Source of the DNA: an uncultured Ectothiorhodospiraceae bacterium
GTDB taxonomy: Bacteria; Pseudomonadota; Gammaproteobacteria; UBA6429; Thiohalophilaceae
Assembly (NCBI GenBank): GCA_947258695.1
Contig: CAMYJG010000024.1
Coordinates: 1-40,048 of the forward strand
Length of the DNA stretch: 40,048 nt
Direction: 5' to 3'
In this document: in pieces, positions 3,640 to 7,570 of the stretch
How the letters are laid out: the number at the start of each line of letters is the position of its first letter
Numbering within the stretch: position 1 is the first letter of the stretch
The notes under the pieces: model-generated
Database searches by the model: none
What the model was told of the DNA's origin: nothing
Seen by the model: the letters and a program-made list of their open reading frames with translations, nothing else
Translations under genes and position numbers: made by a program

Positions 3640-4689
3640 ATGACTTCAGAATCAATTTTCAGCCAAAAATTATTGGCCTGGTATCAACAGCATGGCCGCC
3701 ATGATTTACCCTGGCAACAAGACCGTAGCCTGTACCGGGTTTGGGTTTCTGAAATCATGTTGCAACAAACCCAGGTTGTCACCGTTATCCCTTATTTTGA
3801 ACGTTTCATGGCACGCTTTCCAGACAGCCAAACTCTGGCGAATGCCAGTGAGGATGAAGTGTTACACCTGTGGACCGGGCTGGGATATTACGCTCGAGCC
3901 AGGAACTTACATAAGGCGGCACAAATTATTCGCGATCAATACGCTAATGCCTTTCCTGAAAATTTTGACTCTGTGTTGGCATTGCCGGGAATAGGGCGCT
4001 CAACCGCGGGGGCGATCCTGGCGCAGGCGCTGGGACAAAAACATGTCATTCTTGATGGCAACGTTAAACGGGTACTGACACGGCTCTATGCCATCGAGGG
4101 CTGGCCAGGGAAAAAAGCGGTTGAAAACCAGCTTTGGGACATCGCCGAAACACTCACGCCGGACAATAATCTGACCGATTATACTCAGGCCATTATGGAT
4201 TTAGGGGCAACCACCTGTGCCCGTAAACCCAGCTGCCAGGCATGCCCGATGACAAAAGACTGCAAAGCATTTGCACAAGCTAACGTCACGGACTATCCAA
4301 CCCCTAAAAAACGTAAAGCACTGCCAGTAAAAGCAACTCACATGCTTTTATTGAAAAACGACGCGGGTGAGCTACTTTTGCAAAAACGTCCTCCTAGTGG
4401 AATTTGGGGCGGATTATGGAGTCTCCCTGAATACCCGGTAGATAATGAACAAGATATTACAATGTGGTGTGAGCAGCAGCTAGGCTTAATAATTGATGAC
4501 TGTCAGACATTGCCTGTTTTACGCCATACTTTCAGTCATTTTCATCTTGATATCACCCCGATCTCAAGCCGGGTTAAAAGCCCTGCAAATCATGTGATGG
4601 AAGCCGCAAACGGAGTCTGGTATAACACGCAACGGCCTGAAACGTTGGGACTACCAGCACCAGTGCTAAAGATACTCAATCGAATATAA
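3640..4689 (+). CDS. mutY: A/G-specific adenine DNA glycosylase MutY
   Basis: MutY removes adenine mispaired with 8-oxoguanine or guanine in base-excision repair. The 349-residue protein has the catalytic Glu38 in [10 protein letters not shown], the helix-hairpin-helix [13 protein letters not shown] (115-127) with catalytic Asp139 in [10 protein letters not shown], and a cluster of four cysteines (C193, C199, C202, C208) for the 4Fe-4S site. A NUDIX-like 8-oxoG recognition domain fills the C-terminus, including [15 protein letters not shown] and the FSHFHL motif. The spacing between the first two cysteines is five residues, one fewer than the six in E. coli MutY. It lies between an asmA-like gene and the iron-trafficking gene, a grouping known in other gammaproteobacteria. 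Confidence 0.97.
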
Positions 4690-6182: not shown

Positions 6183-6313
6183 AAATTAATAACCTGAAAA
6201 CAACTTCTGCTGCCTACTATCGAACACTAACTATATCACTATACTTACTAAAAATTATGGCAAAAAGCTGTTACGATCATTTTATCTTCTTATCCATTAT
6301 AGTCTCTACCTCA

Positions 6314-6964
6314 ATGCTAAACTGGAATACTATATCTACCGTATTGCTTGACATGGACGGTACGTTATTAGACTTACATTTTGATAATTACTTTTGGCAA
6401 CATCATGTTCCCAAGCGTTTTGCTGAAAAAAATGAAATGCACATTGATGATGCCCATGAAATTTTAACGCCGAAATTCCGTTCCGCAGAAGGTACCATGA
6501 ACTGGTATTGCGTTGATTACTGGTCACAACAACTCAACCTGGATATTGCCCAACTTAAAGCTGAAGTTGATCACCTTATTTCCGTGCACCCGCATGTTGT
6601 AGAATTTTTAGAAAGCATTAAAGCTGCCGGCAAACACGTTGCCCTGGTCACTAATGCTCACCAGAAAAGTTTAATGTTAAAAATGGATCGCACAGCCTTA
6701 AGTCATCACTTCGATGACATTATTTGCTCGCATGATTTTGGGCTGCCGAAAGAAGACCCCGAGTTTTGGTCAAAACTTAAAAAAACGTTACCCTTTAATA
6801 AAGACGAAACCCTGCTGGTTGATGACACCTTGTCGGTGTTACGCTCGGCGCAAAAGTATGGGATTAAAAATTTACTCGCGGTACTCAACCCGGATAGCCA
6901 AAGCCCGCAACGTAACACCGAAGAGTTTCAGGCTATTAAAGACTTCCGTGATATTACACCTTAA
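6314..6964 (+). CDS. yrfG: GMP/IMP nucleotidase, YrfG-type HAD hydrolase
   Basis: HAD-superfamily 5'-nucleotidase, probably acting on purine monophosphates. The HAD motifs are LLDMDGTLLDL (nucleophile Asp of DMD near residue 14), VTNAHQKSL (motif II Thr), a Lys in GLPKEDPEFW (motif III) and LLVDDTLSVL (motif IV). Family-specific blocks are HFDNYFWQHHVP and MNWYCVDYWSQQL, which match E. coli YrfG closely. I place the start at 6314, where the protein begins like YrfG (MLNWNTISTVLLDMDG). The frame opens earlier at 6257, adding a 19-residue stretch with no counterpart in the family. The 3' end abuts a nested inverted repeat. Confidence 0.85.
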   Translation: MLNWNTISTVLLDMDGTLLDLHFDNYFWQHHVPKRFAEKNEMHIDDAHEILTPKFRSAEGTMNWYCVDYWSQQLNLDIAQLKAEVDHLISVHPHVVEFLESIKAAGKHVALVTNAHQKSLMLKMDRTALSHHFDDIICSHDFGLPKEDPEFWSKLKKTLPFNKDETLLVDDTLSVLRSAQKYGIKNLLAVLNPDSQSPQRNTEEFQAIKDFRDITP

Positions 6965-6973
6965 AATCATTCC

Positions 6974-7151
6974 GCCACAAAGGACACTAAGGTAAAAAAG
7001 CTTAAACCACGGGGGGCACGGGGAATACAGGGAAACAAAAATTTATTGCAGGCATTATGTTCGGTTTGAGCAGCTTTAGAATTCCCCGTGTTCCCCGTGC
7101 CCCCCGTGGTTAATTTTGATTTTTGTTTGTCTACTTAGTGCACTTTGTGGC
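6974..7151. repeat. Nested double inverted-repeat element between convergent genes
   Basis: Two inverted repeats, one inside the other. The outer arms are 6974-6994 and 7131-7151, beginning GCCACAAAG with a later shared CACTAAG and two mismatches over the first 18 bases. The inner arms are 7003-7035 and 7081-7113, which pair over 33 bases with four mismatches and contain a perfect 21-base core (7005-7025 with 7091-7111) made of CCACGGGGGGCACGGGG. Outer and inner arms share a C-C-A-C-N3-G-G-N-C-A-C pattern. The element starts 9 bases after one stop codon and ends 5 bases before the convergent one. It could act as a bidirectional terminator or be a non-autonomous repeat family. Confidence 0.8.
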
Positions 7152-7156
7152 TAAAT

Positions 7157-7570
7157 TTATTCTTCCTCAAAGCGCTGATCCCATTTTTTAAAACGCTTAC
7201 GGCAATAATCATCCAGCTGCTGATAGGTTTTAAAATAAAACTCAAAATGAAGTTCAGCCGGTTCATCGTATTCACAAAAATCATTGGAATAATCGCGGCA
7301 AATTTGCGGCCGGGTTTCATAAATGCCGCAGCCACCATCCGCTTGCAAAAACTGGCATTCGTTCATCGCAATTAAAAACCAGCCATCTTCATCCTTATAA
7401 ACCTGCATATCCTTATGTGCCAACTGCCATAACATATGATCAAAATCTGACATCGAACGCGGTGTCTCCATTTCCTGGGTGGTATACACGCAGCATTTCG
7501 TTCCCGCACAAAATGAACATTTATTTTCGGGCGTTATCTCTATATTTTGCAAATTTTTGTTGGCAGACAT
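7157..7570 (-). CDS. YkgJ-type cysteine-cluster protein
   Basis: A 137-residue protein with the CxxC...CC pattern and later cysteines of the YkgJ/UPF0153 putative zinc- or iron-chelating family: CSFCAGTKCC at about 19-28, NECQF, GGCGIYETRPQICRDY and a final Cys in DDYCRKRF. The G-C-x-I-Y-x-x-R-P-x-x-C-R motif is the most diagnostic. Proteins of this family bind a metal but their cellular role is unknown. It is convergent with the yrfG-type gene and divergent from the histidine kinase at 7642, with 71 bases between the starts. Confidence 0.8.
   Translation of the reverse strand: MSANKNLQNIEITPENKCSFCAGTKCCVYTTQEMETPRSMSDFDHMLWQLAHKDMQVYKDEDGWFLIAMNECQFLQADGGCGIYETRPQICRDYSNDFCEYDEPAELHFEFYFKTYQQLDDYCRKRFKKWDQRFEEE

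Follow-up and report, generated by a model that had tools for sequence, protein, structure and literature searches.

The gap between two convergent genes in the window (the whole 40,048-nucleotide stretch analysed here, from an uncultured Ectothiorhodospiraceae bacterium) holds two inverted repeats, one nested within the other, which raises the question of what this structure is and how it came to be there. The original prediction described a repeat unit duplicated with drift, possibly a member of a genome-wide family spread by a separate enzyme, and possibly also a terminator. The locus comprises the following features.

6257..6964, + strand: upstream gene, GMP/IMP nucleotidase-like HAD protein of 235 aa (NCBIfam NF011564, E 3.6e-69, passes the family cut-off)
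6974..6991, + strand: outer left arm, AAG class, GCCACAAAGGACACTAAG (inverted-repeat pairing and motif match)
6992..7004, no strand: left linker, A-rich (sequence and nesting geometry)
7005..7034, + strand: inner left arm, GGG class, holding the perfect core 7005-7025 (inverted-repeat pairing)
7035..7081, no strand: inner-hairpin loop (pairing and RNA fold)
7082..7111, - strand: inner right arm, GGG class, core 7091-7111 (inverted-repeat pairing)
7112..7133, no strand: right linker, T-rich (sequence)
7134..7151, - strand: outer right arm, AAG class, one mismatch against the motif (pairing and motif match)
7157..7570, - strand: convergent downstream gene, 137-aa protein without an NCBIfam match (ORF and NCBIfam search)

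The architecture stands as first described. The inner arms share a perfect 21-base core, in which 7005-7025 pairs with 7091-7111, within an imperfect longer pairing of 59 nt (6976-7034/7082-7140, 75% complementary). The outer arms pair over 23 nt (6969-6991/7134-7156, 83% complementary), including a perfect 9-mer at 6974-6982/7143-7151. The pattern CCAC-N3-GG-N-CAC is common to outer and inner arms, with one mismatch in the outer right arm, and the element fills nearly the whole gap between the convergent stops, the plus-strand gene ending at 6964 and the minus-strand gene at 7157. At one mismatch or fewer, CCACNNNGGNCACNNNG has four matches in the window against 0.72 expected, all inside the element, a number reached in 1 of 100 shuffles. 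Folded as RNA, 6960-7160 reaches -90.8 kcal/mol, whereas shuffles average -48.8 (z -10.3) and 0 of 200 are as good. An Rfam search returned nine matches up to E 1, all under the gathering score and mostly to microRNA models.

As supposed, the hairpin belongs to a dispersed family. Throughout the 3.2-Mb genome, CCACNNNGGNCACNNNG matches 41 times on the plus and 46 times on the minus strand (87), compared with 3 and 5 (8) for the reversed pattern. Paired copies, which the original prediction had led us to look for, were found as well: in 40 stretches around most motif matches, plus the window, we delimited 41 inverted pairs. These comprise 17 plain AAG pairs, 20 AAG pairs with a GGG arm inside, one AAG pair with a mixed inner arm first, two plain GGG pairs and one mixed pair, the last being an element on contig C40 that carries a gene. 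Because 20 of the 41 are AAG pairs that enclose one or more GGG arms, the idea that a single repeat unit was duplicated locally is ruled out; the nesting instead combines two arm classes, outer AAG and inner GGG, that recur genome-wide. Both inner GGG arms were detected in 11 of the 20 nested AAG/GGG pairs, the window element being one of these. On the left, the inner arm begins 32-58 bases past the outer one (19 measured; 41 bases in six of them), and the right-side offset is 33-53 bases in 14 of 15 nested pairs and 89 in the other. AAG-class arms consist of tandem units of 8-10 bases of the type CCACNAAGG, and the gene-less elements of this genome span 57-210 bases, apart from one of 423 with masked bases.

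Different copies have largely unrelated interiors: shared sequence at E<1e-3 was found in 8 of 820 pairs of elements, one such pair consisting of the two gene-bearing elements described below. Elements L047, L052:361, L064 and L035 share 23-36 bases of interior and perhaps form a recently amplified subfamily. Target duplications, also among the expected marks, were sought at the ends of 39 elements, at lengths of 3-12, placed 0-6 bases from the ends, and at fixed offsets of 0-8 with lengths of 2-10; none exceeded the permutation range. With one mismatch allowed, direct repeats of lengths 8 and 9 were about 2 sd high (8 against 4.1, maximum 9; 5 against 2.1, maximum 6). The absence of a clear target duplication, together with the unrelated interiors, argues against ordinary cut-and-paste.

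A profile search revealed that this genome encodes GxxExxY (TIGR04256/PF13366), a PD-(D/E)XK nuclease-like protein, in two intact copies and a broken one. Both intact genes are bracketed by inverted arms of the hairpin family. On contig C30, the gene at 1130-1477 lies between AAG arms at 1092+ and 1548-; on C40, arms at 4064+ and 4520- enclose the gene at 4136-4486. The arms of the broken copy, on C5, are of the CGC class. It is common for GxxExxY reading frames to extend into repeats of this kind. The original idea, that the family is dispersed and spread by a separate enzyme, is largely borne out, as a coding element with the same ends exists and could supply that enzyme; the candidate, however, is a PD-(D/E)XK nuclease-like protein rather than the RAYT-like one that had been guessed, and is unreported in this role as far as searches of the open-access literature show.

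Across 17 GxxExxY sequences, 22 columns are invariant, among them E27, D67, E77, K79 and Q91, which we take to be the pattern of a PD-(D/E)XK site. The protein matches PF13366 at E 1.8e-41, and a match to the Cas4 profile is weak and under the cut-off. For the structure model (pLDDT 95.3), the best solved fold found by Foldseek is Cas4 SSO0001 (E 2.2e-3, TM 0.50), followed by alkaline and lambda exonucleases; these matches are weak, none reaching E 0.001, and a search of the PDB by sequence gave one match at E 0.7. GxxExxY was found in 0 of 50,697 phage records and in 8 of 72,556 plasmid records. Gene copies within one genome are diverged, aligning at 57-65% or not at all in the eight genomes compared, so no recent jump of the gene is seen in these genomes. 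For the same reason, defining exact element ends from recent same-genome gene copies was ruled out.

The bracketing of GxxExxY genes extends far beyond this genome. In a motif-free test, the left flank of each gene was aligned with the reverse complement of its right flank and compared with shuffles. Among 32 loci of our genome and phylum (two own loci and 30 from the best of the phylum sample), 28 beat all 50 shuffles, three of them (L087, L098 and L099) by one or two points only, and four (L092, L095, L097 and L101) had no inverted flanks above shuffles. In a cross-phyla set, inverted flanks within 200 bases each side of the gene exceeded 100 shuffles at 68 of 77 loci, whereas 4 of 484 equally sized control windows from these loci did so; the other nine loci had no arms above shuffles. 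This set is the best 80 of 576 confirmed loci, named by organism, minus three with short flanks, and a few loci are common to it and the 32-locus set. Loci above chance come from Proteobacteria, Bacteroidota, Acidobacteriota, Verrucomicrobiota, Planctomycetota, Chloroflexota and Cyanobacteria, as well as one Spirochaetota and one Methanosarcinales MAG. Direct-orientation flank repeats also exceeded shuffles at 27 of the 77 loci, in our reading partly because one flank may itself contain a whole hairpin.

The arms at these loci are again built of 8-10-base units, such as CCACGAAG, CCGCAGAG and CCACAGAT, and hairpins of the CCACNAAG/CGCNRAG type adjoin GxxExxY across those many phyla. The arms of the window family are likewise inverted, consist of RCRCNRAG-like units of 8-10 bases and are also found around a GxxExxY gene. 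Such bracketing, here and in many phyla, suggests that the protein is the enzyme that spreads the repeats. On a quick tree of 115 GxxExxY loci, the CAC/CGC arm type requires 20 changes against a mean of 31.9 and a minimum of 25 in 200 shuffles (95 rows labelled), and the GAT/RAG arm type requires 3 against 6.8, minimum 5 (106 rows labelled). Joint inheritance explains this tracking of the tree by arm type, which is hence no proof of recognition.

Repeat number also goes with the presence of the gene. TIGR04256 is present in 58 of 299 phylum genomes. It occurs in 33 of the 38 genomes with at least ten matches to CCRCRRAGNNCRCRRAG, a pattern that covers only some arm classes, and in 25 of the 261 others (hand count). 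In the best-sampled family (f33, 74 genomes), the median number of repeats is 17 with the gene (n=45) versus 0 without it (n=29; p 4e-7). Eight repeat-bearing phylum genomes without a TIGR04256 match contained no PF13366 gene either (0/8). Among PF13366-free genomes, G005, G037, G108, G224 and G263 hold 13-36 arm matches, three of the five being 99-100% complete, and three further ones hold 8-9. G037, which belongs to another family, has 21 arm matches and may have another enzyme or have lost one.

Within the genus, we compared eight genomes, which are 83-98% complete, so that the apparent lack of a gene may reflect a gap in the assembly. Three GxxExxY lineages were distinguished. Lineage A (the C30 site) has AAG arms and occurs in G000 (the genome of the window), G301 and G302; lineage B (C40), with GAG arms, is found in G000 and G305; lineage C has CGC arms and occurs in G301, G302, G305 and G303, the arms of the last having been aligned without a shuffle test, and is broken in G000. 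The numbers of arm matches are as follows (AAG, GAG, CGC).

G000: 79, 3, 2
G301: 130, 1, 78
G302: 101, 1, 57
G305: 0, 50, 26
G303: 0, 10, 3
G300: 0, 15, 0
G299: 15, 0, 4
G304: 1, 38, 1

The three genomes that have a GxxExxY gene with AAG arms thus contain 79, 101 and 130 AAG arms, and the five others 0-15; CGC arms number 78, 57, 26 and 3 in genomes with a CGC-armed gene and 0-4 in those without. Counts are higher in genome-by-class cells with a matching intact gene (p 0.0004; 0.0013 after subtracting the gene's own two arms). In permutations over all three classes, the observed value was reached by 3 of 243 rearrangements of class within genome and by 7 of 20,000 of genomes within class. The GAG class is the exception, being frequent in G304 (38) and G300 (15) without the gene and rare (3) in G000 despite a GAG-armed gene. 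In the genus, copy number mostly follows the resident GxxExxY gene, with exceptions.

Orthologous sites capture the elements in different states. G301 and G302 have the C30 gene-bearing element, but G300, G304 and G303 lack it and have 3-38 bases instead; by coordinates it is absent from G299 too. The C40 site is a 30-base gap in G299 and holds CGC hairpins in G301 and G302. In G304, the gap at the C40 site (L282/L287) contains other repeat-like stretches, GTTCGTCCTGAGCTTGTCGAAGGA and CCCTCCCTCAGGGAGGG, the first of which has no match in the window; the presence of other repeats there favours preferred or tolerant gaps. The window's own gap (6965-7156; orthologs L106-L110) is occupied by an element in all six genus genomes where the locus was found, with outer arms that, classed by eye, are of the AAG, GAG and CGC classes. 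Over six sites and the congeners, 16 of 32 combinations hold a class other than the outer class of G000, by a hand count of the gaps read, long or unread gaps being dropped. Such class differences reflect either strongly preferred gaps or in-place overwriting by the active class. In G302 and G301 (L246 and L247), a nested element without a gene separates GxxExxY from its outer arm.

Taken together, these data lead us to propose that the window element is a gene-less, non-autonomous hairpin repeat, probably mobilised by the PD-(D/E)XK nuclease GxxExxY. The hairpin family and the protein are associated at the sequence level, and from this association we infer binding, cleavage and movement. In the putative model, the AAG-class arms would be the ends of an element whose full form carries one gene, GxxExxY. 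The protein would recognise the arms, probably extruded as a hairpin or cruciform, and cut at them, and copies would arise during repair or replication. The lineage-A GxxExxY that is now on contig C30 would have acted in trans to spread the window copy, in whose AAG loop the GGG-class hairpin would sit. Any terminator effect would be a by-product. Elements of this kind are reminiscent of MITEs, which include NEMIS, RUP and Nezha (PMC3733652, in the part of the text available), in being short, present in many copies and devoid of coding capacity, with terminal inverted repeats and with ends common to a coding element of the same genome, namely the AAG arms around the C30 GxxExxY. Unlike ordinary MITEs, they show no target duplication beyond the permutation range, and their interiors are mostly unrelated.

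The inner GGG hairpin may have a different owner than the AAG arms. In this genome, no GxxExxY gene with GGG arms was seen, and the inner hairpin may thus belong to another enzyme. In TIRtrons, a TIRYT HUH transposase gene is flanked by TIRs, some of which have dispersed repeat families, and the TIR motif GGGGWSAS is reported for TIRYT genes (PMC3733652, available part). It is conceivable, if rather unlikely, that two enzyme families are nested here, only the inner GGG hairpin being TIRYT-like (HUH) and inserting into the loops of GxxExxY-family AAG hairpins. The distinctness of the AAG and GGG classes and their narrow nesting geometry agree with such an arrangement, as do the occurrence of GGGGWSAS in GGG arms and its absence from AAG arms, and a GGG hairpin that stands alone at the E18227 site of G300, a genome without AAG matches. 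However, a GGG-like arm pair also brackets GxxExxY in an Acidobacteriaceae MAG (L149).

A transposase could also account for the whole family, if a HUH enzyme of the RAYT/TIRYT type or another transposase spread the repeats and GxxExxY genes were cargo or preferred such neighbours; we consider this unlikely. Systems of similar appearance are known. In REPtrons (RAYT/TnpAREP), palindromic extragenic repeats, often in inverted pairs, reach high copy numbers, and the same repeats flank the gene of an enzyme that is repeat-specific (PMC3733652 and PMC8266576, in the parts available). The present family resembles REPtrons (REP, REPIN/BIME), as so described, in its many palindromic intergenic repeats in inverted pairs that also flank an enzyme gene, and TIRtrons, as described in the part of PMC3733652 cited above, in a gene flanked by inverted repeats that also form a dispersed family. 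Some repeat-rich genomes lack PF13366, and GGGGWSAS occurs in 10 of 31 GGG-class arms. Yet none of 78 AAG arms contains this motif, none of 80 GxxExxY loci has it in both flanks, and the candidate enzyme has a PD-(D/E)XK (PF13366) rather than a HUH fold. The GTAG tag of REPtrons is missing as well, position -4 of the left flank being A in 12, T in 24, C in 3 and G in 0 of 39 elements, and arms made of tandem units, like the element lengths given above, are further differences from REPtrons. Moreover, the arms lie within 200 bases either side of GxxExxY across phyla, and arm class tracks GxxExxY lineage in the genus. Around three GGG or mixed copies that stand alone, inspection by eye showed no transposase-like ORF.

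The possible terminator function deserves separate consideration. By rough ORF calls, all 25 scored copies (26 were looked at, one being without sequence) lie between genes, often no more than about 35 bases from where a gene ends; the same gaps are occupied by an element in several species, and a T-rich tract lies 3' of the inner stem. These features would fit host-maintained bidirectional terminators or mRNA 3'-end structures whose arms resemble each other through recombination, an explanation that we regard as very unlikely. A terminator scan found one plus-strand site versus 0.5 in shuffles, which is chance level. The copies lie in 20 tandem, 4 convergent and 1 divergent gaps, near the background of 39, 5 and 6, and any enrichment in convergent gaps is unclear (4/25 versus 5/50). 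Neither the arms around GxxExxY in many phyla nor the clean absences at orthologous sites would be explained. Least probable is that GxxExxY is no mobility enzyme and forms a regulatory module with the arms, processing hairpin RNA or controlling DNA structure there: the arms do form very strong RNA hairpins and some weak fold matches of the protein are tRNA-splicing endonucleases, but gene-bearing elements are missing at some orthologous sites, and the position of one, flanked by annotated fabD and fabG genes, is that expected of an insertion.

Mobilisation by GxxExxY, if causal, would give an unannotated class of mobile elements its enzyme and allow the nuclease that had been active in a given lineage to be read from arm class. 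A minimal PD-(D/E)XK protein, about 123 residues long, could then be tested as a mobility enzyme on a defined hairpin substrate. GxxExxY is spread over many phyla yet seldom named in the open-access literature; it stands beside a CRISPR-like RT in the available part of PMC8934634. Among the matches listed in open-access searches, no report tied GxxExxY, PDDEXK_3, DUF559 or GIY-YIG to such repeats, and oligo searches showed no report of the CCACNAAG/CGCNRAG-type hairpins, the listed papers being on different topics to judge by their titles.

Other small nuclease genes are bracketed likewise, as small samples from plasmid records, hand-picked for variety, suggest. All four GxxExxY genes chosen from 8 records had inverted flanks above 200 shuffles, as had 4 of 5 GIY-YIG genes (from 36; L296-L298 and L300) and 4 of 5 DUF559 genes (from 46; L302-L305), L302 and L308 beating the shuffles by two points only. 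We tentatively raise the possibility that GxxExxY, DUF559 and GIY-YIG are unrelated small stand-alone nucleases that each own a gene-bracketing hairpin family spread genome-wide by the nuclease. Such a class would parallel REPtrons and, through nuclease-driven, duplication-free copying, account for many bacterial intergenic palindromes. Individual examples in the plasmid records are flanked, going by annotated names, by fabD and fabG, by sufB and sufC, and by a YqeY-domain gene and dnaG. The repeats around stand-alone GIY-YIG and DUF559 genes differ from GxxExxY arms and are inverted or hairpin-forming, for example GTCATCCCCGCGAAGGCGGGGATCCAGG and CCCCTCCC..GGGAGGGG.
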